The notes under the pieces are model-generated. The model was not told the DNA's origin and made no database searches. It saw nothing but the letters and a program-made list of their open reading frames with translations. DNA of 64,000 bases from Halorubrum distributum JCM 10118 (GTDB taxonomy: Archaea; Halobacteriota; Halobacteria; Halobacteriales; Haloferacaceae): NCBI RefSeq assembly GCF_000337335.1, contig NZ_AOJN01000049.1:145706-209705 (forward strand), in the 5' to 3' direction. How positions within the stretch are numbered: position 1 is the first letter of the stretch; each line of letters opens with the position of its first letter. Shown here one piece after another: positions 1,206-21,968 of the stretch. A program made the translations under genes and the position numbers.

Positions 1206-1522
1206 GTTGTTGAATCTATGTATGAGACGGCATAATATCCCCGCCTCAAATTGAGTCTATAAATATTCCCGACTTCTCACACAACTCAAGAGGCAATTCT
1301 CACAAAATACAGTCATACCCAAGCTCACAGCATCGGTACTGTTGAGGCCGGTAGTGTCGCCGTTGGGAAGCCATCCCGTCGACGTGAACCGCGGGAGCGA
1401 CGCCGACGAGGTCGTGAGAGATCTGTTCCAAGAGCGCGTTCCGCGTGTGGTCTTGGCCGGTACTAGTTGTACTCCCAAATCCGGTACAGATATGCCCCTC
1501 GCATATCACGATTGTATATTCA
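1206..1522. other. Intergenic region between pentapeptide gene and mcrB
   Basis: No gene is recognised here. It separates divergent genes, so it should hold both promoters: AT-rich boxes (tataaatatt near 1258) lie on the pentapeptide side, and a TATA-like stretch (ttgtatattc, 1513-1522) lies directly before the mcrB start. A GC-rich block at about 1340-1470 stands out from the AT-rich surroundings and may be a remnant of other DNA. It also contains the left copy of a direct repeat that recurs downstream of mcrC. Confidence 0.5.
1269..1287 (+). repeat. Left copy of 19-nt direct repeat flanking mcrBC
   Basis: The sequence ccgacttctcacacaactc recurs at 5597-5615 with a single change (c to t at the tenth position). 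The two copies have the same orientation and lie about 4.3 kb apart, one on either side of mcrBC. Such a match is unlikely by chance, but which recombination event left it cannot be told from this window. Confidence 0.6.
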
Positions 1523-4186: not shown

Positions 4187-4188
4187 GA

Positions 4189-7033: not shown

Positions 7034-7201
7034 GTGAGCCGCGTTCCCGACGGGATCGCGGTCTCGGAGGCGTTCGCGTCGTACCTCGAGGAGTTCCGCG
7101 AGCGGTACCCGCTCGATGTCGAACTGGCACGCAAACACGGCTGTTACCACACTCTCATGACACGAAGACGGACCAGCGGTAGCTACGGAGGAATCGCATG
7201 A
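7034..7201 (+). CDS. Small soluble protein ahead of the spike-like gene
   Basis: 55 aa from GTG 7034, helix-rich (SEAFASYLEEFRERYPLDVE), with no membrane segment. Its TGA overlaps the ATG of the spike-like gene at 7198, and its last codons contain the purine-rich ggagga that can act as the ribosome binding site for that gene. Translational coupling is therefore likely. No family is recognised. Confidence 0.55.
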   Translation: MSRVPDGIAVSEAFASYLEEFRERYPLDVELARKHGCYHTLMTRRRTSGSYGGIA

Positions 7202-8652
7202 ACATCGATCTCAAGAAGGCGGGGCTGGCGGCGCTGCTGGCGCTGACGGTACTCTCGTCGATGGTCGCGATGCCGGTAGCGGCGGCGGGCGGGATCGGCT
7301 GGGGCGGTGACGCGAAGACGCCGAACCCGGCGATCCACACGGACGTGACGGTCGAGGAGTGGTCGAACGCGGACTTCGACAGCGCGCTCGAGTACTACGA
7401 CGACAGCGGCGAGGCAACTGAACTGCCGGCCTCGGTGAACGAGTCGAACGACAACCCGGTCACGCTGACGGCGACCGCGATCGAGTTCGACCAGGGCGAC
7501 GCGTTCCCGCGGCTCGACGCGGAGGACGACGAGAACTCGGCGTCGGCGCTCGACGCGAGCGAGTGGACGACCTCGGGGGCGACGGTGAGCGACTCGACGA
7601 CCGCGGCGGGCGTCGACGCGCTGAACTACGCCGGGACGGCGACCTCGGACTCGGCGTCGTACACGAACGTCTCGGTCGCTGACGGCGAGAAGTCGTACGT
7701 CACGATCGCGGCGGACATCAACTCGGCGAGCGGGACGCCGACGCTGCGGGTGACCGACGGCGACGGCGACTACGTCGAGGTCACGCTGTACGACTCGTCG
7801 GCCAACGCGGACTCGGACACGGCCCTCGCGAACAGCACGGGCGATGGGAAGGTCCTGCAGCAGCAGGTCGGCAGCATGACGCTTCAGGGGTCGGGCGACG
7901 GCTCCTTCGGGTCGACCGAGGAGGTCTCGCTGCACGGTGACATCGACGCCGACGTCTCCGTCCTCGACGCGGAGCGCACGCGCGCACTCACCTTCGGTGA
8001 GAAGCTTGAGGACACGGACGACGACGACGAGCTAGAGACGGTGACGATTACGGAGCCGCGGGGCTCGTACTCGGTGACGGGCGTAGACACGTTCGACGAG
8101 GTCATGTCGGACGCGACGATCTACGGACTCACCGCGGACGCGGAGTTCGCGGCGAGCGACCTCGAGGACGACGAGGACGTGAACGCGGAGTTCGGCCCGT
8201 CGAGCGACTTCCCGCAGTGGGACCAGCTCGGTGAGCTGACGTTCCGGCTGGAGCTCCCGACGGCGTTCGACCTCTCGTACTCCTCGCCGGAGTTGGTCGA
8301 CGAGCCGACCCTCCCGAGTGAGCGCTACAAGGCGGTCGACTTCGCGGAGGACACCGGCGACACGGACTTCTCCGAGATCGACTACTCGTCGGTTGCGTCG
8401 AGCTACGACGGGAGCGACGAGGTCTCGCTCGACTCGACGGTCTCAACGGACACCGAGTACGTGATCTCGTACGACGTCACGCTGACGAACGACGAGGTCT
8501 CGGCGATTCAGAACGCGGCCTCGGGCGGCGGGGCGGCGATCATGTCGTCGAATAGCGGAGGTATCGTCGGGTTCATCACGTCGCTCCCCGGCATGATACT
8601 CTCGGCGCTGGCGGGTCTCGTCGGGATCCGCGCCTTTGGCGGAGGGTCCTGA
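7198..8652 (+). CDS. Secreted, membrane-anchored spike-like surface protein
   Basis: 484 aa. A Sec-type signal peptide (residues about 7-29, AALLALTVLSSMVAMPVAAA) is followed by a long, acidic, serine/threonine-rich ectodomain rich in predicted beta strands. A C-terminal hydrophobic anchor (IVGFITSLPGMILSALAGLVG) ends the protein. Size and one-signal-one-anchor topology match the VP4 spike of pleolipoviruses, and it heads the structural operon as spike genes do there. No sequence motif proves homology. The ATG overlaps the upstream stop and has a nearby ggagg. The next gene starts on the ATG overlapping its TGA. Confidence 0.72.
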   Translation: MNIDLKKAGLAALLALTVLSSMVAMPVAAAGGIGWGGDAKTPNPAIHTDVTVEEWSNADFDSALEYYDDSGEATELPASVNESNDNPVTLTATAIEFDQGDAFPRLDAEDDENSASALDASEWTTSGATVSDSTTAAGVDALNYAGTATSDSASYTNVSVADGEKSYVTIAADINSASGTPTLRVTDGDGDYVEVTLYDSSANADSDTALANSTGDGKVLQQQVGSMTLQGSGDGSFGSTEEVSLHGDIDADVSVLDAERTRALTFGEKLEDTDDDDELETVTITEPRGSYSVTGVDTFDEVMSDATIYGLTADAEFAASDLEDDEDVNAEFGPSSDFPQWDQLGELTFRLELPTAFDLSYSSPELVDEPTLPSERYKAVDFAEDTGDTDFSEIDYSSVASSYDGSDEVSLDSTVSTDTEYVISYDVTLTNDEVSAIQNAASGGGAAIMSSNSGGIVGFITSLPGMILSALAGLVGIRAFGGGS

Positions 8653-9140
8653 TGTCCGGAGCCGCCGACGAGCTACCGAGCGGGGACGACCCGTCTGCGA
8701 ACTCGGTACTCACGGGGACGATCTCGTTCCTGAATGGCGGAGGCTCTCTCGGGACGCTCCTACAGGGGGCGATCTTCGGCACGCTCGTCTCCTTCGCGAC
8801 CGGCGGCGTGAACTTGATCCAGAGCGCGTTCGGGCTGGTGATCGCGCCGCTCGACGCGCTGGCGTCGTCGGTGACGCAGTTTGTCGACTCGGCGTTCCTC
8901 GCGCCGCTGGGGATCATCGAGACGACGGCGGAGGCGTCGGCGACGGCGACAGCCTCGCAGTTCGGACCGTTCGCGATCCTCGTCGGCGTCGTGTTGGTGC
9001 TGGGTGCGTTCTGGATGATCACGCAGTTCCTCGAACAGTCGGAGACGAGCGACACGCTGCCGATCCCAGGACTCGGCGACGCGCCGGACATCCCGGGACT
9101 CCCGCTCGGCGTGACCGAGGAGAACGAGGACGAAGACTGA
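8652..9140 (+). CDS. Virion/vesicle-type small membrane protein, paralogue A
   Basis: 162 aa. An acidic N-terminus is followed by a hydrophobic segment (LGTLLQGAIFGTLVSFATGG), an amphipathic stretch, and a strong membrane segment FGPFAILVGVVLVLGAFWMI ending in TQFLEQ, then an acidic tail. The FGP(F/L)...VVLG.F...(I/L)EQ block recurs in the gene at 9189 and, more weakly, in the one at 9651, suggesting tandem duplication. Multi-span proteins of this size next to the spike recall pleolipovirus VP3. Directly coupled to the preceding gene. Confidence 0.65.
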   Translation: MSGAADELPSGDDPSANSVLTGTISFLNGGGSLGTLLQGAIFGTLVSFATGGVNLIQSAFGLVIAPLDALASSVTQFVDSAFLAPLGIIETTAEASATATASQFGPFAILVGVVLVLGAFWMITQFLEQSETSDTLPIPGLGDAPDIPGLPLGVTEENEDED

Positions 9141-9188
9141 TGCGGCACCCATCGCGATCCAACCGCGCGCTCGCGGGGGTGGTGAGCG

Positions 9189-9650
9189 GTGGCTGACGGC
9201 GACGACGCGACCGACGTGGACGTCGACGAGTCGTCGTTCCTGACCGGCGTCACTTCTATCGAGGGCGTCTCTTGGTCGGGTGCGTCGGGCGTCGACGTGG
9301 GACGGCTCGCGAGAGCGATCGTCGGGACGGCGGTGTTCACTGTCGCCGCCGGTGTGAACACGGTCGTCAGCGGCCTCACGGCCGCGGTCACGGGCCTGAT
9401 AGACGGCGTCAGCGAGTTCCTCGCGGGGGCGACGGAGTGGTTCCGGATCCCGGGCGTCGGCTGGCGGCCGACTCGAGAGGCGGGCCTGATCGAAGTGATC
9501 TTTGGGACCGGCATCGCCGCGATCCGCGGTGCATGGTCGTTCAACGTGGACACCTTCGGCCCGCTTTCGCTCCCGGTCGGCCTCGCGGTCGTTCTCGGGA
9601 CGTTCCTCGTGGTCGCCCGGGGCATCGAACAGATCCAGGAGGTGATCTGA
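9189..9650 (+). CDS. Virion/vesicle-type small membrane protein, paralogue B
   Basis: 153 aa from GTG 9189. Soluble N-terminus, then hydrophobic segments AIVGTAVFTVAAGVNTVVSG and FGPLSLPVGLAVVLGTFLVV followed by ARGIEQI. The second block aligns with that of the upstream gene. Between the genes an 18-codon ORF (9140-9196) starts on the upstream stop and overlaps this start, so coupling through it is possible. Function is unknown beyond being a likely envelope component. Confidence 0.65.
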   Translation: MADGDDATDVDVDESSFLTGVTSIEGVSWSGASGVDVGRLARAIVGTAVFTVAAGVNTVVSGLTAAVTGLIDGVSEFLAGATEWFRIPGVGWRPTREAGLIEVIFGTGIAAIRGAWSFNVDTFGPLSLPVGLAVVLGTFLVVARGIEQIQEVI

Positions 9651-10136
9651 GTGGCGGATGACGGTCCCTCTATCCCCGGTTGGATAGATGGTCTCAAGCC
9701 TCTGATCGACGATGTCAGTCTTCTCGAGGACTTCGCGAGCTCGCCTCGTCAGTTCGTCGTCGGCGCGGTGCTGACGACGTTCCTCGAGGTCGTGTTCGGC
9801 GTCGTCTCGCAGCTGGTCGACATCGTCCTCCTGCTGTTCGGCGGCTCGGAGCCGGGGCGGTTCAACGCGCCCGGCGAGACGCTCGGACTAGCGGACGTGC
9901 CGGTCGCGGTCGCTCAGGCACTCGGCGGTGCGGGAGCATCGTTCGGGACGACGATCCTGGATGCGATCCGCGGGCTCAACGCGGCCGTATTCGAGGCGGC
10001 TGGGGTGCTCGGACCGTTCACGCCGGTCGTCGTGGCGGCGGTCGTGATCACGGAGGTCGTCGTGGCGATCGTGGTGCTGCGTCGGATCGTGTACATCGTC
10101 GCCGACCTGCTGCAGCTCGGAGGGTTGACAGAGTGA
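9651..10136 (+). CDS. Virion/vesicle-type small membrane protein, paralogue C
   Basis: 161 aa from GTG 9651, immediately after the previous stop. Hydrophobic segments FVVGAVLTTFLEVVFGVVSQ with LVDIVLLLF, and a C-terminal GPFTPVVVAAVVITEVVVAI. Layout, length and the GP(F/L) start of the last segment parallel the two upstream proteins. The gene ends in a GTGA overlap with the next gene. Confidence 0.65.
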   Translation: MADDGPSIPGWIDGLKPLIDDVSLLEDFASSPRQFVVGAVLTTFLEVVFGVVSQLVDIVLLLFGGSEPGRFNAPGETLGLADVPVAVAQALGGAGASFGTTILDAIRGLNAAVFEAAGVLGPFTPVVVAAVVITEVVVAIVVLRRIVYIVADLLQLGGLTE

Positions 10137-10411
10137 CACTGAAAGACATCGCGAAGGATCCGCTGACGCAGGTGTCGGCGGGACTTGGCGCGATCGCCGC
10201 GGTGCTGAACCCGGAGGTCGTGTGGGCGCTGACGGATGCGCTCATCGCCTCGGGGCCGCAGTTATTCTCGGCGATCTCGGTGGGGGCGCTGACGCTCCCC
10301 CAGGTCCTGCCGCCGTCGTCAACGGGAGAGTGGGCGGTCGTCGCGGCCGCTCTCGTCTTCTTGGCGTATCTGGGTCAGCAGATCTGGAGCAACATCGATC
10401 GAGAAGTATGA
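10133..10411 (+). CDS. Small two-span membrane protein
   Basis: 92 aa, starting at GTG 10133 on the GTGA overlap. Begins VTLKDIAKDPLTQVSAGLGA and contains a moderately hydrophobic region plus a clear C-terminal span (WAVVAAALVFLAYLGQQIW). A 24-codon ORF (10408-10482) overlaps its stop and carries the ggaggtg ribosome binding site of the next gene. No family is recognised. Confidence 0.6.
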   Translation: MTLKDIAKDPLTQVSAGLGAIAAVLNPEVVWALTDALIASGPQLFSAISVGALTLPQVLPPSSTGEWAVVAAALVFLAYLGQQIWSNIDREV

Positions 10412-10469
10412 AACGCACACACAGCGGACGATCTGAGTGGAATCGGACACGAACGAACGGAGGTGAACA

Positions 10470-10841
10470 ATGTCGGCGGTGACGCTGGCGCTGGGCGTGC
10501 TCGCGGTGGGCGCGCTGGTCTACGTGGTCGGCGTCGAGCGAAGTCGTGACGCGGCTGCACGGGCCGGCTCGGCGGCCTCGTCGGGCGCCGGGGCGGCGTC
10601 GCGAGCGGTGTCGACGAGCGCGGCGGCTGGCGTCGCGGGGCTGGGTGTCGGCCTGCAGTTCGGAGACGACCTGATCACTGCGGTCCTTTCCGATCCGGGG
10701 TTCGCGTTGGCGGCGGTGACGGGGATCTTCGGCTCGCTCGGGACCGGGGGCTACCTCGGCGACCTGTCGGGGCTGCAGTTCCTGCTGATCGGCGTCGTCG
10801 TCTTCGCCGTCGGCTACGCGGCGTTCGGAGGTGAGGAGTAG
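10470..10841 (+). CDS. Small membrane protein with Ala/Gly-rich middle
   Basis: 123 aa. N-terminal span (VTLALGVLAVGALVYVVGV), an alanine/serine-rich region, and two more hydrophobic stretches (ALAAVTGIFGSLGTGGYLG and LQFLLIGVVVFAVGYAAFGG). A good ribosome binding site (ggaggtgaac) precedes the ATG. Unknown function; by context an envelope or assembly protein. Confidence 0.6.
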   Translation: MSAVTLALGVLAVGALVYVVGVERSRDAAARAGSAASSGAGAASRAVSTSAAAGVAGLGVGLQFGDDLITAVLSDPGFALAAVTGIFGSLGTGGYLGDLSGLQFLLIGVVVFAVGYAAFGGEE

Positions 10842-11071
10842 TGTCGTTCTACTTCCCTGATATCCCGGAAACAACCGGTGGATGGTCTCTCGCAGTTGCT
10901 GGTGGACTCATAGGGTTAGTCGTCTTCACGTTCCAGCACTGGTTCGATGCGCCATTCAACGGTCTTGCGATGGTCGTCGGTGCGGCGCTGACTGTGTTCG
11001 CGTTCACGGATGCCTACCTGATCGCGGACACTCTCGACGACCGAGAGCGGGCGACGGAGGCGAGTCGATGA
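10841..11071 (+). CDS. Small two-span membrane protein
   Basis: 76 aa from GTG 10841, overlapping the preceding TAG by one base. Two membrane segments (WSLAVAGGLIGLVVFTF and GLAMVVGAALTVFAFTDAYL) are followed by a charged tail. Its TGA overlaps the ATG of the large surface protein at 11068. Confidence 0.6.
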   Translation: MSFYFPDIPETTGGWSLAVAGGLIGLVVFTFQHWFDAPFNGLAMVVGAALTVFAFTDAYLIADTLDDRERATEASR

Positions 11072-12924
11072 GCCGCGGCGCCGCGGTCGTCGCGGTAAGC
11101 CTCGCGGTCCTCTGTGTGCTCTCCGCGCTCGGGGCGGCGATGCCCGCTATGGCGGCTGGGGTGCCGGCACAAGTCGAGGGCGGAAGCGGTGAGTTCGACG
11201 CGCCCGGACCGTTCGAGATCTCGGAGCTGCGGACGGGTGGGAACCAGCCGGCGGCAGCGCCGCCGTCGGTGCGGTACGTGGGCGACGGCTCGCAGCCCGG
11301 AGGAGCGATAGCGCTCCGGCACGTCCCGGCCGGGCCGCTGGAGAACCAGCCGATATTCTTGGAGCGAGGGAAGACACTGAACACCGACGAGGTCGAGCTT
11401 TACTCGACGGTGTTCGGCGGGTCGGCGACCGGCGAGTACGAGGCGGTGATCGTCTACTGGTCGGCGGAGTCCCGGACGGTGAACGGGACCACGGTCGAGT
11501 ACGCAGCCGATCAGGAGGTGCAGCGGGCGACGGTCGACGTCGAGCCGGGGTACGCGTCGGCGCCGATCGCGTTGAACTCGCACTACAACGAGTCGGTGCA
11601 AGCGACCATGTGGCTCGAGCGTGACGGTCAGGTCGTCGACGGGGCTCGCTGGCGGTTCACCCACGCGTCGGCGCCAGCGAGCCAGCAGGTACAGATCGAG
11701 ACGCAGGCTGATGCATGGTGGTACGTGTTCCGGACGGCGATCCTGCCGGGCGTGGCGTCGATCGTGGTCGGGCTGTCGGCGGCGAGAGCGACGCTGAAGC
11801 GAGCGGGCCGCGGACCGGGGTACTCACTCGGCACGTACGGGTTCCTGACCGGCGTCGGCGTGCTGCTGGCGATCGCCGGGCTCTACTACGAGCTCGCGGT
11901 CGTGGTACAGCACGTCGACATCCTGTTCGGCCTGTCGTTGCTCCCGATCGCGTACGGTGGCGGGCTCCGGATACGTGACCCGACGGAGAACATCGCCTTT
12001 GAGCGGAAGGAGCTGACCGAGGCGCTGAACCTGCGCCGCGGTCAGACGCACAAGGAGGCGGACCCGGATGCGGTGCCGGACGGGGGTGCGGAGTCGTCGG
12101 CGTCTACGAGCGACCGGATATCGCTCGACGAGGACGGCTACTACGACGAGCTCTTCGAGGACCTGTCGCTCCTCAAGACCATACGGGCGCCGGACGGGAA
12201 CGGCCGGCTGGTCCCGAGAAAGGGGTTCCGGCCGTTCTTTGCCCGGCTGTTCTCGAGCGCGGCGCGGCTCGATCTCACCGATCTTCGGACGCGGGTGAGT
12301 GTGAACGGGTCGGCGAGTCAGAAGGTGTACGTCGACCCGGAGAGCGACCACGCGGTCGACCTCAAGCCCGCGCACCTCCGGCGGCGGATGCCGGTGTGGC
12401 ATCGGCTCCCGGAGCCGGCTGACGGAGAGAGCCTGTCGCCGGTGACGAGAGGGCTCTACGGGTTGCTCACAGTCGGCGCGCTGGCGTTGCCTCTCATCGG
12501 GTGGCAGGCAGGGGCCGCTGTGGCGAACACGCCCGTCGTCGGCGCTGCGGTCGGCGTGGTACTCCTCGCGGTGGAGAGCTACGAGGCGGTCGACGGGTCG
12601 ATCGACTTCGACCCGGCGCCGCGCCACGACGTCACCGCGGACGCGTCTCTAACGGTCATGCAGTCGGAGCACTCGGACGCGAAGACGCTCGAGGAGTACG
12701 AGGAGATCGTCTGGCAGGAGCGGACGTCGACGGCGCTCGAAGCCCGCGAGGTCGACTCGCGGCGCGACGCGAGCATGATCCGGCGGCTCCTCGAGGACGA
12801 GGTGAACATGGACCTCGGCGCGACCGGCGTCGACGAGAACGCCGGCTCCGAGCTTGAGGACCGGCCCGTCGACGAGTCGGACCGTCGCGCCGGCCGGCGC
12901 GACACGGAGGAGGACGATGTCTAA
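11068..12924 (+). CDS. Large multi-span surface/assembly protein
   Basis: 618 aa. The signal peptide is cut near AMPAMAAG (about residue 27-30), then an ectodomain of about 190 residues. Two or three spans follow (FRTAILPGVASIVVGLSAAR; TYGFLTGVGVLLAIAGLYYE; VDILFGLSLLPIAYGGGLRI), then a cytoplasmic region of about 160 residues, two more hydrophobic stretches (LYGLLTVGALALPLIGWQAG and VVGAAVGVVLLAVESYEAV) and a highly charged C-terminus. The start was chosen on the ATGA overlap at 11068-11071 because the signal peptide begins there. The position upstream of the ATPase parallels the conserved membrane ORFs between spike and VP8 in pleolipoviruses. No motif identifies it. Confidence 0.62.
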   Translation: MSRGAAVVAVSLAVLCVLSALGAAMPAMAAGVPAQVEGGSGEFDAPGPFEISELRTGGNQPAAAPPSVRYVGDGSQPGGAIALRHVPAGPLENQPIFLERGKTLNTDEVELYSTVFGGSATGEYEAVIVYWSAESRTVNGTTVEYAADQEVQRATVDVEPGYASAPIALNSHYNESVQATMWLERDGQVVDGARWRFTHASAPASQQVQIETQADAWWYVFRTAILPGVASIVVGLSAARATLKRAGRGPGYSLGTYGFLTGVGVLLAIAGLYYELAVVVQHVDILFGLSLLPIAYGGGLRIRDPTENIAFERKELTEALNLRRGQTHKEADPDAVPDGGAESSASTSDRISLDEDGYYDELFEDLSLLKTIRAPDGNGRLVPRKGFRPFFARLFSSAARLDLTDLRTRVSVNGSASQKVYVDPESDHAVDLKPAHLRRRMPVWHRLPEPADGESLSPVTRGLYGLLTVGALALPLIGWQAGAAVANTPVVGAAVGVVLLAVESYEAVDGSIDFDPAPRHDVTADASLTVMQSEHSDAKTLEEYEEIVWQERTSTALEAREVDSRRDASMIRRLLEDEVNMDLGATGVDENAGSELEDRPVDESDRRAGRRDTEEDDV

Positions 12925-13687
12925 GAGCGACGACAGCGGTCAGACGCGAACGACCCGTCCCGCGCTCGACGTCCTCGACCGCGACCAGGACCGGCTCTTG
13001 TACGCGGGCGACACGCGTCGGAATCCGGCGGTCGAACCGCTCGCGGACGGCTTCTCGACGTACTGGTCGGCGCTAACATGGTACCAAGCGGCGGGGATCC
13101 GCACGCTCGGACACGTCGAGCGGGTGATCGAGCCGAAAGAGATCATGCCGCTGTCGACGATCCTCGAGTACCTGTTCGCGACCGACGACTCACCGGAGGG
13201 GCGCTACGTCCGGATGCGGACGGTCGAGGAACTAAACGATGCGTGCGACCTCGCGTACAAGCAGTTCCGAGAGCGCGCGAACGAGCGGGTCGAGAACGAG
13301 GAGGGCGACAGCTGGAAAGACGTCGACCCGGACTCGGAGCGGAACCCGTTGATGCGCCCGGCGTTCCGCCGGCTCGACCGGAGCCAGGCGGGGGCGCTCA
13401 TCGCGCTATGGGACGGCTTCGAGGACCGGCGGGCGGTCGGGCGCTGGGTCCGGTCGCTGGCGGCGCCGACGAACGGCGAGACGCCGGACGGGTTCCTGAA
13501 CGAGATCGTGTCGTCGCCGCCACTCCTCGAGGCGCTCCTGGATAGGGAGTCACGAGACGCGAAGATGACGCGGTACCGGTTCGCGGTCGGCGCGCTCCTG
13601 CCACCGTTCCTGTCGGCCGCGCGGACGCTGAACGGCGGCGAGCGGACGGATAGCAGCGGGAAGACACACGAAGCGTGGAACTCATGA
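12917..13687 (+). CDS. Soluble charged protein of the structural operon
   Basis: 256 aa, starting at ATG 12917 inside the last codons of the preceding gene. No membrane segment or signal; mixed helical and charged, with an aromatic region (FSTYWSALTWYQAAGIRTLG) near residue 50. The stop forms an ATGA overlap with the ATPase gene, so the two proteins are probably made in matched amounts and may work together. No family is recognised. Confidence 0.55.
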   Translation: MSKSDDSGQTRTTRPALDVLDRDQDRLLYAGDTRRNPAVEPLADGFSTYWSALTWYQAAGIRTLGHVERVIEPKEIMPLSTILEYLFATDDSPEGRYVRMRTVEELNDACDLAYKQFRERANERVENEEGDSWKDVDPDSERNPLMRPAFRRLDRSQAGALIALWDGFEDRRAVGRWVRSLAAPTNGETPDGFLNEIVSSPPLLEALLDRESRDAKMTRYRFAVGALLPPFLSAARTLNGGERTDSSGKTHEAWNS

Positions 13688-15054
13688 GCAAATCATTCAG
13701 CAGTCGACAGAAGGAACAGCGCGGCGAGGAGTCGGTGATCGAACGGCTCCACGAGGACTTCGCGCCGTGGGAGAAGTCGCGGCAGGCGCGGTATCACGCC
13801 GGCTCGAAGTCGTGGGGACGGCTCGCTCAGTACCACAACGACGGCGAGCGGATCTACAAGGACTTCGAGGACGCGGCGGGGAACAGCCTCAAGCCGTTTC
13901 ACAAGAAGCTCGAGAGCCTGTCGCGGACGGCACGCCTGAACGGGATGGAGAACGCGCACCCGGTGTACCGGTACCCGAGCTCGTACCTCGACGCGATCAT
14001 TCACGTCGACGACGCGGAGATGTGGGCGCTCGAGGAGGGGCGGCTCGACGACGACATCATCGCGGAGCAGCCGGCGCCGCGCCGGAAGGTGCTCGAGTGG
14101 CTCGCGAAGCCGGAGAACGAGCACGTCCTCGCGGCGATGGGCGACGGCGGGACCGACATCTGGGCGCACTCGAAGCCGGGCGGCGGGAAGACGTCGTTCG
14201 CGAACGTCGTCGGCGGGATCCGGATGCCGGAGATCAACAACGAGACGCTGCTGTGGATGCTGACGCTCGACGAGCTCGAGTGTCTCCCGCTCGCGCCGTA
14301 CATGACCGTCGCGGTGCCGGCGGGGATCGACTACGAGGTCCACGCGAAGCCGCGGAACCCGACGCTGCCGACGACGGAGATCTCGCTGACCGACGTGTTC
14401 CGCGACACGATCACGTACAAGAACCCGCGAGACCTCATGACGAAGATCGTCCCGGGCGGGCTCTACGCGGTGCTGCCGGACCCGCTGTTCCGAGGCTGCG
14501 AAAAGCAGACGATGGCGACGTACACGCCGGCCCGAGAGGCGGAGAAGCCGGCGGAGGTAACGCCGCTCCGTGACGTTAATTTCGCGTTCATGGACACGAG
14601 AGCGAAGGACGACGAGTTCCTCCACCCGACGACGATGGTCCTCGACGAGTTCTCGGACCTGGTCCCGCTGAACCCGGAGGCTGACGAGAACGACCAGAAC
14701 CGGAAGGTGAAGGGCTACCCGGTCAGCCAAGGGAAGGGACGGAAAAAGAACCTCTCGACGATCCCGCTGTCCCACAGCGTCGCCCGCGTCGACGAGGGGG
14801 TTCGGGAGAAGACACGGTGGTTCGTGACGATGCCGAAGCCCCCGCCGCCGTCACCGTCGCTGTCGGGGATCGGGAACGTACCGATCGACAAACACTACGT
14901 GAACCGGTTCGCGGACCGGACGGGTCGGGCGGTGATCTGGCGCGACCAGAACTACACGCCGGTCGAGTGGCCAAACCCATACCGGAACTACCGGTTCCGG
15001 GGCGAGATCTCGGTGCGATACCCGCGCCGGGAGGAGGCGCTGGATGCGTTGTAG
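13684..15054 (+). CDS. P-loop ATPase, VP8/packaging-like
   Basis: 456 aa. Walker A HSKPGGGKTSFAN (about residues 163-175) and Walker B TTMVLDEFSDLVP (about 316-328) are clear; a region after it (LSTIPLSHSVARVDEGVREK) could hold sensor or finger residues. The overall style is that of HerA/FtsK or TraG-like ATPases used for DNA translocation or packaging. Pleolipoviruses carry one ATPase of similar length (VP8) at the same relative place. The ATG at 13684 overlaps the preceding stop. It ends the tightly coupled part of the operon; a gap of about 170 bp follows. Confidence 0.72.
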   Translation: MSKSFSSRQKEQRGEESVIERLHEDFAPWEKSRQARYHAGSKSWGRLAQYHNDGERIYKDFEDAAGNSLKPFHKKLESLSRTARLNGMENAHPVYRYPSSYLDAIIHVDDAEMWALEEGRLDDDIIAEQPAPRRKVLEWLAKPENEHVLAAMGDGGTDIWAHSKPGGGKTSFANVVGGIRMPEINNETLLWMLTLDELECLPLAPYMTVAVPAGIDYEVHAKPRNPTLPTTEISLTDVFRDTITYKNPRDLMTKIVPGGLYAVLPDPLFRGCEKQTMATYTPAREAEKPAEVTPLRDVNFAFMDTRAKDDEFLHPTTMVLDEFSDLVPLNPEADENDQNRKVKGYPVSQGKGRKKNLSTIPLSHSVARVDEGVREKTRWFVTMPKPPPPSPSLSGIGNVPIDKHYVNRFADRTGRAVIWRDQNYTPVEWPNPYRNYRFRGEISVRYPRREEALDAL

Positions 15055-15096
15055 AGCTAGTCAGACCCCGGTATCTGGCTGTTTTGACGGCTACAA

Positions 15097-15113
15097 ACGC
15101 CGATATTCGGCGT
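15097..15113 (+). repeat. Inverted repeat upstream of the large surface-protein gene
   Basis: acgccga (15097-15103), tat, tcggcgt (15107-15113) is a perfect 7-bp inverted repeat. It is nested within a weaker pair, gttttgacg and cgtcgaaac. It lies in the 171-bp gap between the ATPase gene and the 1102-aa gene, so it may be a terminator/attenuator or an operator for a second promoter. Confidence 0.45.
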
Positions 15114-15225
15114 CGAAACAAACCGGTCCTGCCGAGATCGACCGGTACGCGACTGCTCGCGACCGCGCACAGAGAGGCCCACACGCGCGCGTATCTAAGA
15201 GGAGGGGAGGGGGAGGGGGTGAACC

Positions 15226-18200
15226 ATGACTGACGAGACACCAACCGACACCAACGACGAGGAGGAACAGAACCGAGAGCTGATCGCGTGGCTGAAGACG
15301 ACGCTGGTCGCGCTCGTGGCGCGAGTCCGGTCGGCGGTCGCACAGTCGGTCGAGGAAATCGAGCCGCAGCTCCGCGGGACGCTCGAGCGGCTACACATAC
15401 CGGCGGGCGCGGTGAAACCGCTCGCACTCGCGGCCGTGCTAGTCGTGGCCGCGGTCGCGATGCCCGCGGCGCCGTTCGCGGGCGATGCGACGAACAACTC
15501 CACGGAGGAGGCTGTCTCAGGGACTACTTACGACCCGGTCGACGGGAACGACCTGCGGGACGTGGTGTCGAATAGTCTAGGCGCTGCGACGAGTTCGGCA
15601 CCGCCAGCACCGAGTGACGTGCGAACGAGCGCGGGCTCACAAACGATGAGCGTGCAAACGGACGTCGTCGACGGTGATCCGGCGATCGTCCTCGAGGACG
15701 ACCGAACCCACGACGGACGCTGGGTCGCGATCGAGACGGCGTGGTTCCAGGAGCACGTGGGCGAGGTGCCGCAGGTGGCTCGCGTAAAACACGAGAGTAA
15801 CGGCACGTACTCGACGCCGATCGAGGCGCGCGGCGAACAGGCCGCGTTCTACGTTGAGGAGTTCTCGACGAACACGGTCACGTTCGACGGCGTGCTCTCG
15901 GTCTCGGGTGGTCCGGCTGTCGACGGCGACACGATCAGCTACGAGGCGCCGAACGGTGGTTCCGACCTATCGATCGATCTGACGGGCGTCGAGAACACGG
16001 CACCGGACTCGGCATCCATGAGTGCGTCGGGATCAGGCACTCTCCCGATCTCCGTCGACGGCAACACGGCTCCCCGCAACGAGAGCGTCACTATTACCGG
16101 AGTGAGAGAGACGACCGCAAAATCGACAAGTGACACGTTCACAAGTTCTGGGACGCTTGCCGTCGACACGGGTAACGTCCCCGCTGACAATATTCAACTG
16201 TCGGTTGCTGGTGGCGCTAACACCGCCTCAAAGTCTGTTGGTGAGTGGATCTATGACAACGAATACTCGGAGAGCGAGCGAACAAGCGAGACGACCGTTT
16301 CAACAGACAGTATAGATACAATTGAGCAAGTGTATATTAACACATATGTTAATCTCGCGGGTCTCGATGATTCTAACATGGAGGTGTATATCGACGGTGA
16401 GAAGCAAGGATCCTATACGGTCATAGATGGTGAAAAAGAGAGTATAACGATAGATATTGGCTCTGTTCCTGTAGATAATGATGTGACTGTCAAGTTTTAT
16501 AACCCGGATTATGGCACGATCAAAATCCAAAGCTACGAGCTGCGGGGGATGTCGCCGGGGACGGTCACGGCGTCGACAGATACGGGGGACTCAGAATCAC
16601 TCAGTATGGGGGAATCGACCTCGATCCCGCTCAAAAGTAACACCAACGGAGTGACAATTGACGGGATAAGCGGAGGGACTGTTGACGCGTCGCTATCTTA
16701 TGATAAGGTCATCCAGACACAGAACCCGTCCGTTAGTGTCGGTGGATCGACCGTCTCCGAGTCGGGTGTCATGTCTCCCGGAGATACAAAGACTGGACAG
16801 GTGGACCTCTCGACAGGCGCGCAGTCGGCTGACGTATCGGCGTCCGGTCCGGTCGACGTGTCGGCGTCGTGGACAGAGGTGAGCGAGACGCGCGATCCCG
16901 TCGTGGAATATAACGGTCAGACGGCGAGCTACTCCGGAACGCTATCGGACGGCGAGACCACCTCGCTTCCGGTGAACGACTCGTGGATCAACGAGGGGAC
17001 GAACGACCTCTCTGTGTCGCTGCCGTCGGTGTCGAGCGGACCGGTCCCACAGGTGGGCGTCGACGTGACCCACGATGTCTCCGAGAGCCGGACGATCGAC
17101 TACTCCGCCGAGGCGTTCTCGGAGCGGTACACGACCTCGAAGACGTGGAGCGAGAACACGTCGAACGCGACGCTAAGCGTCCCGTGGGCCTCGTCGAGCG
17201 TCGTCTCCGTCCGGGATATTTCGGTGACCTACGAGGACTCGACGGGAGCGACACCGAGTCCGCGGCCGAACCCTACGCACCGCCTCGAAAACGGGTCGGT
17301 CGTCGTAGAACTCGGAGACGTGAAAGCTGGATGGACTACCGAGATCTCGGCGGCCGGCTCGAAAGTGCAAGTCGACGGCGCCGACCTCGAGGTCATCAAC
17401 GCGACGGCAGCTGGCGAGGACCTCGACAGCCGGATCCGACTGAACAGCCCGTCGGACGACGTGTACCTCCGCGTCGGAGAGACCGAACAGGGACAGCAGC
17501 TCCACTACCTCGCGAACGCCTCGTGGAGCAACGAGGAAGCGTCGCAGATCAGCGCGGACGGGACGAACGAGATTCGCATCCCGAACGCGCCGGACAACGG
17601 CGAGGCACAACTCCGGACGCTTCCGCTCGCGTTCGACGTCGAGACGGGAGCGATCGACGTGGACATTCCGGACGGCCGGCTGAACGAGGGAGAGCCGGTC
17701 TACCGTGTCTCGTCGGCTGGCAGTACGGGAGACAGCTACCACGTGACGTTCACCGAGGCGAAGGACGGACAGCCGTACGTCCTCTGGTCGGAGACGCGCG
17801 AGATCGTCCTCGACGAGGGCATGGCGTCGAGCCCGCTCACGCTCTCGGCGGAGGACTCCGAGGAGACGCAGGTGATCCAGTTCCGCGAGGACGACGGCAC
17901 CGTGACGAGTTCCGACGGTGGCGTCGGCGGAGCGATCGCAGGGGCGGCGCCGATGGTGACGACGTCGTCGCCGTTTAGCGGGCTGGGTGGCTTCCTCCCG
18001 GGCCCGAGCGTGTTCATCATCGGTCTCGCCGGCCTCGTCGGACTAACGTTCGTGGCACGGCGGACGCAGCTCTTCGACGAGGGCACAGCCTCGGACGCGG
18101 TCGCGGACTCGGCAGCGAGTGTAGGCGAGCGCGCCGGTGGGCTTCTGGGCCGCGCGCTGTCAAACGAACTCGTGCTCGCGGGCCTGACGCTCGCGGGTGG

Positions 18201-18534
18201 CGTGTGGTTGCTCACGTCGGGCGCGTTCACCGAGACGGAGCGGCTGATCATTTCCCTCGGGAGCGTCCCGGTCGCGATGTTCTTGGTCCTACAGCAGTTC
18301 GACCAGTTCGACCTCCGGGTGTGGGCTGGCTCGACCGCGGTGGTCGCGGTGCTCGGGATCCAGGCACTCGCGCCGGAGGTGTTCACGACGATCGCCGAGG
18401 AGGCGGGGATCGTGATCGTGGCCGGTGCGCTGATCCTCGGGTGGCGAGCGCTGTCGGCGTGGCGCGCGGAGGCGTCGACGCCGGAGACGGTCAACCGGCT
18501 GCGGATCTCGACGGAGGACGACGATGACACCTGA
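15226..18534 (+). CDS. 1102-aa membrane-anchored surface protein, probable second spike or receptor-binding protein
   Basis: A charged cytoplasmic N-terminus is followed by a signal-anchor at about residues 63-84 (VKPLALAAVLVVAAVAMPAA). An ectodomain of about 800 residues, Ser/Thr/Gly-rich with repeated beta-sandwich-like patterns, comes next, then four or five C-terminal membrane segments (from VFIIGLAGLVGLTFVA, about residue 925, to IVIVAGALILGWRAL). Codons for about residues 290-440, strongest at 349-435, are markedly AT-rich compared with the rest, suggesting a swapped-in domain. A strong purine-rich ribosome binding site (ggagggggtg) precedes ATG 15226. The next gene overlaps its end by 11 bp. 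Function by analogy: host attachment or envelope stabilisation. Confidence 0.65.
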   Translation: MTDETPTDTNDEEEQNRELIAWLKTTLVALVARVRSAVAQSVEEIEPQLRGTLERLHIPAGAVKPLALAAVLVVAAVAMPAAPFAGDATNNSTEEAVSGTTYDPVDGNDLRDVVSNSLGAATSSAPPAPSDVRTSAGSQTMSVQTDVVDGDPAIVLEDDRTHDGRWVAIETAWFQEHVGEVPQVARVKHESNGTYSTPIEARGEQAAFYVEEFSTNTVTFDGVLSVSGGPAVDGDTISYEAPNGGSDLSIDLTGVENTAPDSASMSASGSGTLPISVDGNTAPRNESVTITGVRETTAKSTSDTFTSSGTLAVDTGNVPADNIQLSVAGGANTASKSVGEWIYDNEYSESERTSETTVSTDSIDTIEQVYINTYVNLAGLDDSNMEVYIDGEKQGSYTVIDGEKESITIDIGSVPVDNDVTVKFYNPDYGTIKIQSYELRGMSPGTVTASTDTGDSESLSMGESTSIPLKSNTNGVTIDGISGGTVDASLSYDKVIQTQNPSVSVGGSTVSESGVMSPGDTKTGQVDLSTGAQSADVSASGPVDVSASWTEVSETRDPVVEYNGQTASYSGTLSDGETTSLPVNDSWINEGTNDLSVSLPSVSSGPVPQVGVDVTHDVSESRTIDYSAEAFSERYTTSKTWSENTSNATLSVPWASSSVVSVRDISVTYEDSTGATPSPRPNPTHRLENGSVVVELGDVKAGWTTEISAAGSKVQVDGADLEVINATAAGEDLDSRIRLNSPSDDVYLRVGETEQGQQLHYLANASWSNEEASQISADGTNEIRIPNAPDNGEAQLRTLPLAFDVETGAIDVDIPDGRLNEGEPVYRVSSAGSTGDSYHVTFTEAKDGQPYVLWSETREIVLDEGMASSPLTLSAEDSEETQVIQFREDDGTVTSSDGGVGGAIAGAAPMVTTSSPFSGLGGFLPGPSVFIIGLAGLVGLTFVARRTQLFDEGTASDAVADSAASVGERAGGLLGRALSNELVLAGLTLAGGVWLLTSGAFTETERLIISLGSVPVAMFLVLQQFDQFDLRVWAGSTAVVAVLGIQALAPEVFTTIAEEAGIVIVAGALILGWRALSAWRAEASTPETVNRLRISTEDDDDT

Positions 18535-18856
18535 CGTGCCGCTGTTCATCGGGGAGTTCCTCTCGGAGTACTTCCGCGAGTCGGTGGTGCTCGCGATCCT
18601 CGCGGGTGTCGTGCTGCTGCGGTTCCGTCGATACCGCGCGGTGGCGGGAGCCGGCGCGGCGGCGGCGGGGTCAGCGGCGACGGTCGCGGTCGCGGTGGTC
18701 GTGACGCTCATCGCGATCGTGGCACTCGGCTACTGGGAGCCGCCGGTCGAAGAGATCATCGCGGACGGGAGCGCTGCGGCTCGCGGTGTCTACGAGTTCA
18801 TCCTACAGCCTATCGTCGACATCGGCGCGAAGGCTCTCCGTACAGGGACGTCGTAA
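18524..18856 (+). CDS. Small membrane protein ending the rightward operon
   Basis: 110 aa. It begins within the last codons of the large surface-protein gene (ATG 18524). Two hydrophobic segments (SVVLAILAGVVLLRF and AGSAATVAVAVVVTLIAIVAL) are separated by a basic loop RRYRAVAG. Unknown function; coupling suggests a partner of the 1102-aa protein. Confidence 0.62.
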   Translation: MTPDVPLFIGEFLSEYFRESVVLAILAGVVLLRFRRYRAVAGAGAAAAGSAATVAVAVVVTLIAIVALGYWEPPVEEIIADGSAAARGVYEFILQPIVDIGAKALRTGTS

Positions 18857-19317
18857 GGCCACCTGACAACCTTCTTTCTCGGGGTACCTCTCACGGCTAT
18901 ACCGCGCTCTCACGGCCGAGAGGGCGTCCTACGACTGTTCTGTAGGTTCCACGTGCTGTGTGGTGCGGTGCGGTAGGCCGGAGCCGTTCTGGCTCCGGCC
19001 GTTATTGTCTTCCCCCTTAGGGGCTACACCCGTAGGGTCCCCTGCTAACCTACCCACGCACCGCAGACGCTCTACTGGCTGTTCTCGCGACGCTCGACAC
19101 CACGAGAGACACGATCCGCGGATAGGAGTTAACAACCATTATGTTTTAAAATCCACTCTGTTCGCGGGCGTAACTGCGGAAGCGGAATGATCGACGCCGA
19201 TCGAGCCGCCTGGTCGTCGACGTCGAGGGACAAGAGGCGCGGATCGAGGCCTCAGAACGCGCGAAAGAACAGAGCCGAAGCTACCGACCGCGGCGAACCG
19301 AGGCGCGTCGAGCGCCG
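18857..19317. other. Non-coding region between convergent operons of the element
   Basis: About 460 bp without a convincing gene, between the end of the rightward structural operon and the end of the leftward operon. It contains the strong hairpin at 18976-19000, a palindrome ccccttagggg (19014-19024) followed by further short C/G-rich inverted motifs, and an AT-rich patch (ttatgttttaaaat, about 19139-19152). It may hold terminators for both operons. A replication origin or a non-coding RNA are alternatives. Confidence 0.45.
18976..19000 (+). terminator. Perfect 10-bp hairpin in convergent intergenic region
   Basis: ggccggagcc (18976-18985), loop gttct, ggctccggcc (18991-19000); all ten pairs match. 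It is followed by gttattgtcttc, moderately T-rich. It lies about 120 bp after the last rightward gene, so termination or RNA 3'-end protection is the simplest reading. Confidence 0.55.
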
Positions 19318-20985
19318 TTACTCGACCCAGTCTCGCCGATCGGTCCGAACGCGGACCTCGTCACCTTCCAGGTACTCCTTCTCGAGCGCTGTCGCCAGCT
19401 GGTGCGGCTCGAGCGTGAGGTCCTGGAAGTACGCCCACTCCGAACGACGTCCGCGATCTCCGTCGCCGGCGTCGTCCTGGTCGTCGCTGTCCTCCTGGTC
19501 GTCGTCACCGACCGCGGTCGGGTCCTCGCGCTCCTCGCGGCGCTCGCGTCGAGCCTCCGCGCGGTCCATCATGTCGTCGACCTGGTCGTCCGGGTAGATC
19601 CGCCGAAGGATCTCCTCGGCCTCGTCGAGGACGGCGAGGCTCGGGAACACGACCAGCACGGGGTTCCCGACCTTCTCCGCGATCCCGACGTCGACGAGCC
19701 GGGACACGTGGTACCGTATCGTCGAGCGGGCGAGCCCGGTCCGCTCCTCGAGCGTGTCGTAGGACGCGCCCGACTCGGTCGCGACCACGCGGAGGATGTC
19801 GTACACGGCCTGCGTGTTCGCTTTCAGCGCCTCGCGGTGGATCTCCGTCCCGACGGCCTCGTAGCGCTCCCGGAGCTGTTCACGACGGCCGCCCGGGTGC
19901 TTGTACCGGTACTCCGGGCTCGCCGGTCCCGCCTGATAGTCGTCGGCGATCAGCTCGTCGCGACCGACCCCGGCCCACTCTAGGTGCGCCGAGACGACCG
20001 ACCGCAGCACCGACATGACCTCGTCCCACTCGTCGACATGCGGGAGCGCTCCGTCGCCGTCGACGCCGGCGAACGACGCCTCGAGCTTCGGGTGGTGCGC
20101 CGGGTCCTCGCGCGGGAACTCCGCCCACCCCGCGGCCTGGTAGCACTTGAGTTCGATGTCGTAGGACGTCCGCTCGAACCCGAGGAGGTGCCAGCGGTCG
20201 GCGTCGAGGAGCGCCTCCAGGTAACCCTCGCGCTGTCGGCGCTGGTGCGCCTCGATCTCGGACTGACCGCCGTAGGCGATCAGCTCCCGAGTCTGATCCA
20301 GGACCTCGACGACCTGCCGCTTCCATCCGATGTCGAACCGGTGGTGTGCCTCGGCTTTAGTGAGCCGACGCGAGTCGGCGTTCCGGTCCGCGAGGAGGCG
20401 ACCGCGGTCGACGTCCAGGACGACCTCGAGGAGGTCGAGCATCCGCCCCTCGACCTCGGCGGCCGTGTCGGCCCACGTCGTCGAACACCGCACGAGCGAG
20501 CCCTCGTCGTACTGGAGCGTGAGCGGCTCGCCGTCCTTGTAGTTGAGATCCTCGAACTGCGGGATCACACGGAGCGAACACGCCTTCCCGGTCTTGTAGA
20601 GGTCCCCGTCCTCGTCGCGCTCGCGGAGCGTGAGGTCGTACTTGTAGTACGCCGAGTAGTCGTCGCCCGAGCCGGTACCGGCCTTCCAGCGCGACGAGGT
20701 GAGCTTCACGACCCACTCTCGCCCGGGCGTCGGCGCGTCGAGCCACGACAGCTCCCGGTGATCGACCTCGGCGGCGATCCCCGGCTCCTCGTCGCGATCT
20801 CCGACGAGGTCGTACCACAGCTGGTGAACGGCCGAGTAGAGCGCGAGGTCGCGACCCGCGTCGTTGAAGACGGCTTGAACGGCGGCTCCGTGCGCGGCCG
20901 GCTGCGGTGCGACGCGGTCCTCGATCCGCGGGTCCGGGAGCGTGCCGATCCCGGCCTCCGGAGTGGTCGGCGTGTCGATGCTCAC
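19318..20985 (-). CDS. Winged-helix protein, probable replication or master regulatory protein of the element
   Basis: 555 aa from GTG 20985, which overlaps the preceding zinc-ribbon stop (GTGA). The N-terminal 380 residues form a large unknown domain with conserved-looking aromatic and charged motifs (WVVKLTSSRWKAG, YYKYDLTLRERDEDG). Residues about 390-435 are a MarR/ArsR-like winged helix (YDTLEERTGLARSTIRYHVS), and the C-terminus is very acidic with a last basic patch. Related-looking proteins with a C-terminal winged helix occur in betapleolipovirus-like genomes in place of a rolling-circle Rep, as I recall. Replication initiation is my first guess, lysogeny control the second. It is the last gene of a five-gene leftward operon. 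Confidence 0.65.
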   Translation of the reverse strand: MSIDTPTTPEAGIGTLPDPRIEDRVAPQPAAHGAAVQAVFNDAGRDLALYSAVHQLWYDLVGDRDEEPGIAAEVDHRELSWLDAPTPGREWVVKLTSSRWKAGTGSGDDYSAYYKYDLTLRERDEDGDLYKTGKACSLRVIPQFEDLNYKDGEPLTLQYDEGSLVRCSTTWADTAAEVEGRMLDLLEVVLDVDRGRLLADRNADSRRLTKAEAHHRFDIGWKRQVVEVLDQTRELIAYGGQSEIEAHQRRQREGYLEALLDADRWHLLGFERTSYDIELKCYQAAGWAEFPREDPAHHPKLEASFAGVDGDGALPHVDEWDEVMSVLRSVVSAHLEWAGVGRDELIADDYQAGPASPEYRYKHPGGRREQLRERYEAVGTEIHREALKANTQAVYDILRVVATESGASYDTLEERTGLARSTIRYHVSRLVDVGIAEKVGNPVLVVFPSLAVLDEAEEILRRIYPDDQVDDMMDRAEARRERREEREDPTAVGDDDQEDSDDQDDAGDGDRGRRSEWAYFQDLTLEPHQLATALEKEYLEGDEVRVRTDRRDWVE

Positions 20986-21158
20986 GTCGACCCACCCCGG
21001 CACTTGTAGCAGACGACGTCTTCGCCGGATGTCTTCCCCCCGCACTCGGGACACTCGTAGTCGCCCTTGTCGAGGTCGACGCCGTCGAACTTTTGCTCGA
21101 CCGCGCACATCTGACAGACGCCGCTCCGGCGCTGCGTGGGGTGTGGGCACCCCGTCAT
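20982..21158 (-). CDS. Zinc-ribbon protein with two metal-binding knuckle pairs
   Basis: 58 aa, beginning MTGCPHPTQRRSGVCQMC. Cysteines occur as C..H, CQMC, CPEC and CYKC, enough for two zinc sites. Starts at ATG 21158 on an ATGA overlap with the upstream gene and ends in a GTGA overlap with the winged-helix gene. Probably a nucleic-acid or protein adaptor acting with its neighbours. Confidence 0.68.
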   Translation of the reverse strand: MTGCPHPTQRRSGVCQMCAVEQKFDGVDLDKGDYECPECGGKTSGEDVVCYKCRGGST

Positions 21159-21373
21159 CGGCCACCTCCCGCGTCGGCCTCGACGAGCTCGAGGACGTTC
21201 CACCAAGTGACTCTCTGGCAGGAGTGACACACGTGTTGGAACGAGCCGCTGGAGCGGTCACCGACGATCTCGGCGGTCCGCTTCTCCGAGGTCTTTCCGC
21301 ACCCCGTACAGCGCGCCGAGAGCAGCGGGCCGACGTGGCCCACGCCGGGCGCGGTGGCCCGTTCACTCGACAT
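21155..21373 (-). CDS. Zinc-ribbon protein
   Basis: 72 aa from ATG 21373 (MSSERATAPGVGHV). One clear four-cysteine ribbon, RCTGCGK and HVCHSCQ, about 25 residues apart, with a hydrophobic C-terminal helix (WWNVLELVEA). Overlaps both neighbours in the leftward operon. Confidence 0.66.
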   Translation of the reverse strand: MSSERATAPGVGHVGPLLSARCTGCGKTSEKRTAEIVGDRSSGSFQHVCHSCQRVTWWNVLELVEADAGGGR

Positions 21374-21500
21374 CTTCCGCCTCCTCAGTCTCGTCGTCCT
21401 CCCGGTCATCTGCCAGTTCGTCGGGGAGGTTCCCGTTCTCCTCCGCGAGCCGGAGTTGTTCCGCGAGCGAACTCGCGTGACCGGGGTCGTCGTCGCTCAC
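21363..21500 (-). CDS. Small acidic protein
   Basis: 45 aa from GTG 21500, starting VSDDDPGHASSLAEQLRLAE, with a strongly acidic tail (DDREDDETEEAEDVE). The start overlaps the preceding stop (GTGA), and the stop lies inside the next gene. Too short for a family assignment; it could mimic DNA or bind a basic partner. Confidence 0.55.
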   Translation of the reverse strand: MSDDDPGHASSLAEQLRLAEENGNLPDELADDREDDETEEAEDVE

Positions 21501-21712
21501 GCTGACGCACCCCCGTCTGAGCCCTCGTCGGGACGGTAACGCCGGCCTTCGGAGGTGCCGATCTTGAAATCGTCGGGACGATGCGGGCAGCCGACCAGGT
21601 GGCCGTACTCGAGGTCGCCGTTGATGCTGCGGGTACACCGCGCGCCGCAGGTGTCGCAGAAGAACTCGCGGTCCTTCTCGGCGGTGAAGCTCCCGGAGTA
21701 GCCGAGGCTCAC
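21497..21712 (-). CDS. Zinc-finger protein heading the leftward operon
   Basis: 71 aa from GTG 21712, preceded by ggaggtg. Cysteines FFCDTCGARC and, after an insert, GCPH could bind one zinc. First gene after the tRNA-proximal edge of the element, with an AT-rich promoter region of about 80 bp upstream. It may be an early or lysogeny-associated gene, but nothing in the sequence proves this. Confidence 0.6.
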   Translation of the reverse strand: MSLGYSGSFTAEKDREFFCDTCGARCTRSINGDLEYGHLVGCPHRPDDFKIGTSEGRRYRPDEGSDGGASA

Positions 21713-21793
21713 GCGCCGACACCTCCGGCTACGGACGTGTTTTTCCTCGAATACCTATTACTAAGAAGTGATACGTTAGAGTGAAGACCGCTA
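21713..21793 (-). promoter_or_regulatory. Promoter region of leftward operon, next to tRNA-Trp
   Basis: On the minus strand an AT-rich stretch (cttagtaataggtatt, about 21750-21767) lies about 40-55 bp before the GTG at 21712, followed by the ggaggtg ribosome binding site. It occupies the few bases between the element's first leftward gene and the tRNA 3' end, so it is probably just inside the attachment site. Confidence 0.45.
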
Positions 21794-21968
21794 TGGGGCC
21801 GGAGGGATTTGAACCCCCGATCGACTGATATCTCCGGTGCGCCTCGGAACTCCAGAGGGTCGTCAACACGACCGATGATCAGTCGGCCGCTCGGTATATC
21901 AGTCTGGAGTGTCGTCCCGGGCGCAAGCCTCTGGAGTCAGTCGCCATGCCTGGCTTGGCCACAGCCCC
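21794..21968 (-). tRNA. tRNA-Trp (CCA) with 101-nt intron; right attachment site
   Basis: Read on the minus strand, ggggctg pairs with cggcccc as acceptor stem. The D arm is gcca/tggc, the anticodon arm actga-ctccaga-tcagt, and the T arm ggggg-ttcaaat-ccctc, with discriminator A and no encoded CCA. The anticodon is CCA. Exon 1 is 21931-21968, the intron about 21830-21930 and exon 2 about 21794-21829, the splice point being just 3' of the anticodon as usual for haloarchaeal tRNA-Trp. In Haloferax this intron is known to carry a C/D-box guide RNA for its own tRNA; CTGA-like boxes are visible here too. The mobile element abuts the 3' end. Confidence 0.95.

Follow-up and report, generated by a model that had tools for sequence, protein, structure and literature searches.

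A candidate Rep-Arvir replication module in an integrative element at tRNA-Trp of Halorubrum distributum

Five open reading frames (ORFs) lie on the minus strand at positions 19318-21712 of a 64,000-nucleotide stretch of Halorubrum distributum JCM 10118 (contig NZ_AOJN01000049.1, positions 145,706 to 209,705; hereafter the window), every one of them overlapping its neighbour, and the question they raise is whether such an operon serves replication, lysogeny control or simple repression. The initial annotation, made from the sequence alone, described five overlapping leftward genes beside a tRNA, encoding three small zinc-ribbon proteins, an acidic 45-mer and a 555-residue protein; ORF calls and a tRNA search bear out this layout, and all the products are present as described. 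We conclude that the operon is very probably the replication module of an element of about 30 kb, comprising a rolling-circle initiator of the Rep-Arvir family and assembled together with the integrase by excision. Gene order, protein family, conserved residues, attachment (att) sites, synteny and hairpin covariation are read from the sequences themselves. The operon and its neighbouring tRNA gene, which ARAGORN found in intron mode and missed in the default mode, consist of:

19318..20985, minus strand: rep, 555 amino acids (aa), GTG start; Rep-Arvir-type protein (DUF7845 and a winged helix-turn-helix, wHTH) with putative catalytic Tyr282 in K-C-Y and Glu302 in HPKLE
20982..21158, minus strand: zr3, zinc-ribbon protein, 58 aa
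21155..21373, minus strand: zr2, zinc-ribbon protein, 72 aa, two CxxC
21363..21500, minus strand: acidic peptide gene, 45 aa (47 aa if read from a second GTG further upstream in the same frame); sequence conserved around AEQLRLAEEN, with an acidic tail
21497..21712, minus strand: zr1, zinc-ribbon protein, 71 aa, GTG start; heads the operon in the provirus
21794..21968, minus strand: tRNA-Trp(CCA) with a 101-nt intron; integration target, in the same direction as the operon and 81 nt upstream of it

The N-terminal domain of the 555-aa protein, at first described as unknown, belongs to Pfam family PF25227 (DUF7845), scoring 71.8 bits where the cut-off is 27 (E 8.9e-20), and behind it lies a wHTH domain matched by HTH_20 at residues 406-449 in a query of 566 residues (27.4 bits, the cut-off again being 27). 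According to PMC13107129, a DUF7845-wHTH protein of the betapleolipovirus SNJ2 initiates replication and is kin to the Rep_trans proteins of bacteria; its family was named Rep-Arvir there (2026), and DUF7845 is the catalytic domain of this RepSNJ2. An alignment of 30 Reps of the clade found here was compared with six Reps of betapleolipoviruses and the lemon-shaped virus LSV-48N (SNJ2, HHPV3, HRPV3, HGPV1, Harhisp1 and LSV-48N), and the two sets match with an hhalign probability of 98.2 (E 6e-14). The catalytic Tyr (Y283 in RepSNJ2, Tyr282 here) is kept in 36/36 Reps and the wHTH Gly at RepSNJ2 G410 in 35 of 36; Glu at the position of RepSNJ2 E303 (Glu302 here) is present in 30/30 clade Reps and in two of the six others, HRPV3 and HGPV1 having Gly. 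At E<=1e-10 the clade profile has matches in 42 of the 293 genomes searched from the order, and among 59 relatives 25 match at E<=0.001, with 15 places in 13 genomes below 1e-14.

Domain content, the profile match and the catalytic Tyr support the placement of the 555-aa protein among the Rep-Arvir initiators and, because an origin-like block also follows the gene (see below), we assign it as a putative rolling-circle initiator. The same four lines of evidence bear out the earlier guess of a role in replication, and the DUF7845 and wHTH matches together with the residue conservation agree with the view that this is not a simple repressor, a candidate ruled out by the Pfam domains and the Rep alignment. 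That the protein is nevertheless a transcriptional regulator, one whose large domain is a sensor and which switches lysogeny from an operon that is a control cassette, we regard as highly improbable: PHROG 15150 and 3288 carry the label "transcriptional regulator" and a wHTH domain is present, but DUF7845 is catalytic in RepSNJ2, the Tyr and (within the clade) the E303-equivalent are invariant, and the origin-like block stands at a fixed distance behind rep. Moreover, a separate wHTH regulator resembling SNJ2 orf4 and the regulators of LSV-48N and Harhisp1 is located elsewhere in the element, at window about -5531 to -5225 (negative positions lie left of the window, outside it), which leaves the "lysogeny-control complex" of the initial annotation unsupported as stated.

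The block behind rep is near-invariant in six close relatives and comprises three parts:

19028..19038, minus strand: palindrome ACCCTACGGGT, putative Rep binding site; the same 11 bases occur in the SNJ2 origin
19012..19023, minus strand: first hairpin, CCCC-TAAG-GGGG (CCCCTAAGGGG at 19013-19023), putative nick site; TAAG loop as in the SNJ2 origin hairpin
18976..19000, minus strand: second hairpin, 10-bp stem and loop AGAAC; the stem covaries across the clade

A palindrome and then a TAAG-loop hairpin behind rep are also the arrangement in SNJ2, where Rep and the downstream DNA suffice for (unstable) replication (PMC13107129, main text); unlike in SNJ2, the first hairpin is here followed by the second, covarying one, and the distance from rep to the start of the palindrome is about 280 nt, as against about 152. 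The combination of CCCCTAAGGGG and a second hairpin (loop AGAAC, AGAGC or AAAC) is found in 18 of 27 full-length clade loci. Across 17 of these 18, both partners have changed in nine of the ten pairs of helix 2, and pairing holds in 97.5% of cells, compared with at most 64.8% when the partners are slid. The DNA folding z-score of the block is -3.39; in the minimum-energy fold CCCC pairs with an upstream GGGG and the TAAG hairpin is not closed. The pattern CCCCTAAGGGG-N20-40-AGARCG has 42 copies in 32 of the 293 genomes (six for the reversed control), and 18 of them sit 298-324 nt behind a clade Rep. By analogy with RepSNJ2, the palindrome downstream of rep would be bound by Rep, and a nick made by Tyr282 in the TAAG-loop hairpin would prime rolling-circle replication. 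Locus L155 (G040) has two TAAG hairpins, 290 and 558 nt behind rep, one of the clade type (CCCC) and one of the SNJ2 type (GTGGC).

The way in which the operon may be joined to the integrase follows from the ends of the element:

-8485 (C49:137220), outside the window: attL, an exact copy of TCCCTCCGGCCCCAT, 30.3 kb left of attR and adjoining the integrase
-8408 to -7281, outside the window: tyrosine integrase (PF00589), reading toward attL
21709..21792, minus strand: right (3') part of an attP-spanning ORF, whose TGA overlaps the zr1 GTG and whose left part lies about 30 kb off beside attL (near C49:137220)
21793..21807, minus strand: attR core TCCCTCCGGCCCCAT, at the tRNA-Trp 3' end

The 15-bp TCCCTCCGGCCCCAT consists of the last 14 bases of tRNA-Trp and one T, and attL and attR are its sole matches at up to three mismatches over the 37.5 kb scanned; a second att repeat was not found within the window. 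The chromosome common to relatives breaks off near window -11515 (G012, G005, G015, G016, G003) and picks up again at tRNA-Trp (G012, G015, G016). Judged by its sequence, the region is an integrative, virus-like haloarchaeal element of about 30 kb, inserted at tRNA-Trp and extending beyond the window. A recombinase gene at 5704 was rejected as the element end, the att pair being further left and the gene internal.

In the integrated state the operon would lie behind tRNA-Trp, some 30 kb away from the integrase. Excision would join attL and attR and thereby complete a short ORF across attP (the bridge ORF) overlapping both the integrase stop and the zr1 start, so that on the excised circle the integrase, bridge ORF, zr1, acidic peptide, zr2, zr3 and rep would form one co-directional row and replication would be coupled to excision. 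When the flanks of G000 or G013 are joined, the integrase stop falls 157 nt before zr1 and a 54-codon ORF overlaps both; the halves of the G013 element lie on two contigs, and the att/integrase arrangement is found there as well. In G018 the integrase (46% identical), att, zr1, acidic gene, zr2, zr3 and rep are contiguous on the chromosome without any joining, about 100 kb from its tRNA-Trp, and the bridge is a 44-codon ORF starting 69 nt past the integrase stop. Bridge ORFs arise by chance in shuffled gaps at frequencies of 0.11 for G000 and G013, 0.025 for G018, 0.055 for LSV-48N, 0.018 for Harhisp1 and 0.007 for SNJ2, where at the tolerances used the observed SNJ2 and G018 ORFs are themselves not scored, though each has an open frame. 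Three elements at tRNA-Ile likewise keep the frame open from the att core onward, and in this group the substitutions look protein-like (differences by codon position 16/17/31, three sequences).

An attP inside a coding sequence (CDS) between the integrase and a CxxC protein is already known in pleolipoproviruses (PMC7911831), and in SNJ2 the operon is formed upon excision, with its start site mapped within the integrase gene (PMC13107129, main text); both the attP-spanning gene and the excision-made operon are thus already published. From this layout, the operon is expected to be active only after excision, in which case its link to lysogeny would be topological. Nicking, rolling-circle replication, transcription after excision and the roles of the small proteins are what we infer from these arrangements. 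With tRNA-Trp 81 nt ahead of it and read in the same direction, the operon could already be on in the provirus by read-through from the tRNA, and excision would then be no switch; this is unlikely, however, given the location of the SNJ2 start site inside the integrase gene and a bridge ORF that is complete solely across attP. Overlapping genes are often translationally coupled, and the requirement for each gene of the SNJ2 operon, as found with nonsense mutations, may therefore be in part a matter of polarity.

The genes zr1, acidic and zr2 precede rep in the same order in 9 of 15 regions compared, with zr3 in 5 of these 9 syntenic operons, and in the other six regions zr1, the acidic gene and zr2 were not found by tblastn. 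The ratio of nonsynonymous to synonymous substitution rates (dN/dS) is 0.22 for zr1 (8 sequences, G018 not included), 0.32 for the acidic gene (8 sequences, without G013a), 0.30 for zr2 (9 sequences) and 0.13 for zr3 (5 sequences). Since the gene order recurs and dN/dS is low, the small ORFs are not chance. In the stretch of at most 1.5 kb ahead of rep, a double-CxxC ORF occurs in the sense direction in 20 of 27 wider clade loci and in the antisense direction in 1 of 27; this strand control is rough, since the count includes a few host genes past the tRNA and ORFs arise more readily on coding strands. Within the replication module we take the three zinc-ribbon products and the acidic peptide to be accessory proteins under selection, probably nucleic-acid-binding or regulatory.

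Several observations weigh against the replication-module reading. In all 30 clade Reps the column of RepSNJ2 E25 holds Gly (in the multiple alignment, this divergent N-terminus lying outside the hhalign match) and that of D207 holds Lys; E25 and E303 are essential in RepSNJ2, and an acid at E25 is not given as family-defining in the sections consulted of the same paper (PMC13107129). All 11 rows of alignment A1 agree in residues E302, E212 and H214, and given these the acidic site of the clade Reps is possibly shifted. The AlphaFold models are of low confidence (mean predicted local distance difference test, pLDDT, 38.0 and 41.6), too poor to judge a TBP-like fold by. The two-hairpin block is absent in that form from 9 of the 27 loci: eight have no pair, three of them (G148, G208, G200) still showing a hairpin of the second type, and G244 has a different pair. 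Moreover, 24 of the 42 copies of the block have no adjacent clade Rep, so that the block also occurs apart from this Rep, and searches of phage, plasmid and viral-contig collections yielded no relative. In the tRNA-Trp group, substitutions in the right part of the bridge ORF are not protein-like (40 nonsynonymous versus 12 synonymous codon differences, four sequences), homology of zr1-zr3 to SNJ2 ORF25 is unsupported (best hhalign probability 13.9), and the approximately 3 kb from attL (-8485) to the end of the shared chromosome (-11515) is attributed neither to the element nor to the chromosome.

Among the 24 copies of the block away from a clade Rep, 20 were examined: five have a betapleolipovirus-type Rep upstream and 15 no Rep in the stretch covered. 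The palindrome or something similar stands directly before the block in 16/17 Rep-linked rows versus 1/20 others (by eye), and in most Rep-less rows the shared sequence starts at or a few bases from the TG/CCCC junction and ends near +157. Some Rep-less blocks are located at seemingly the same chromosomal places across species, with diverged flanks (L183, L190; L186, L187, L192, L193). Retention at one place between diverged flanks hints at selection on the block, and the Rep-less copies caution that the second hairpin may act independently of this Rep. The second hairpin could, though this is doubtful, terminate transcription or belong to a non-coding RNA instead of to the origin. Its location between the convergent genes o110 and rep would fit, as would the 15 of 20 Rep-distant copies without Rep and the Rep-less blocks at apparently the same place in several species; on the other hand, the loop AGARC is nearly constant while the stem covaries, unlike in a generic terminator, an Rfam search of six loci matched tRNA as the sole family, and 18 copies keep their fixed distance behind a clade Rep. 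Because most Rep-less copies begin at the hairpin base, TG/CCCC, after unrelated DNA and without the palindrome, one may also imagine that Reps of this clade not only nick at the TAAG hairpin but insert DNA at new sites from the nick, like a rolling-circle transposase, which we consider quite unlikely. If it were true, the block would be both a replication origin and a transposon-like terminus, and possibly a host-kept element at one place in several species.

In the remainder of the element, within the window, two further features are relevant to its relationships:

5704..6309, plus strand: second tyrosine-recombinase-like gene, 201 aa, internal to the element and related to the second integrase gene of LSV-48N
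7198..18856, plus strand: membrane/large-protein module (o484 to o110), with no sequence match to the compared pleolipovirus or LSV-48N proteins

Ten protein profiles of the structural region gave no match at E<=1 to SNJ2, Harhisp1, LSV-48N and eight further pleolipovirus proteins, the spike and NTPase included, and a pleolipovirus or LSV-48N structural module was rejected; two large proteins of the element match three haloarchaeal plasmids at 23-36%. Genes related to the 5704 recombinase gene are carried by elements at tRNA-Trp and by others at tRNA-Ile. The tRNA-Trp gene is an insertion hotspot, with att remnants or second copies in G020, G017, G016 and G018, and a sister group of elements is found at tRNA-Ile sequences (G003, G019, G013b).

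SNJ2 shares with this element the integrase, the attP-spanning ORF, small CxxC proteins and a DUF7845-wHTH Rep (RepSNJ2 is ORF19), co-directional on the circle, but E25 and D207 are not kept in the present clade, the small proteins are not detectably homologous and the structural genes are unrelated by sequence. LSV-48N, a lemon-shaped virus of Haloferax, is alike in its integrase (47% identical), second small integrase-like gene, wHTH regulator and the order integrase, bridge ORF, three genes, Rep, whereas its Rep groups with the betapleolipovirus set used (E25 kept, Gly at E303) and its structural proteins are not matched by hidden Markov model (HMM). Harhisp1 and related pleolipoproviruses likewise have the integrase, attP inside a CDS, a CxxC protein and Rep, as well as a pentapeptide-repeat gene (PMC7911831), but their spike/NTPase module has no match here. 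Both SNJ2 and Harhisp1 have double-CxxC proteins at the same place as this operon, homology to SNJ2 ORF25 being undetected by profile.

The element also encodes a pentapeptide-repeat protein of 379 aa (window 66-1205, minus strand), as does Harhisp1, and a 50% identical one lies past the second recombinase gene in G013. An McrB/McrC-type restriction system is located at window 1445-5484 (plus strand). A membrane protein of 1102 aa (window 15226-18534, plus strand) has relatives at 28-30% in several Halorubrum elements and at 31-36% in three haloarchaeal plasmids including NC_006391. A transposase-like zinc-ribbon gene is in two pieces (L074:18977-19973, window about -1023 to -27), apparently broken or interrupted by an assembly gap. 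In G016, which lacks Rep, a 150-bp leftover of the right end of the element lies beside tRNA-Trp (G016:C1:199150-199196 and neighbours).

The altered acidic residues, the second hairpin and the Rep-less copies were not found in the sections consulted of the Rep-Arvir paper (PMC13107129). With its covarying stem, the second hairpin offers a definite candidate for an origin part that can be put to the test, and the protein-like selection on the zinc-ribbon proteins means that they have some job in the module. Weak selection on the bridge in one group raises the question of whether the bridge acts as a protein or just as a ribosome carrier across attP, and the latter role would change the reading of the published nonsense mutants. 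With these findings, the excision-dependent replication operon known from experiments on SNJ2 would extend to a separate clade of Reps and to an element whose structural genes are unrelated.

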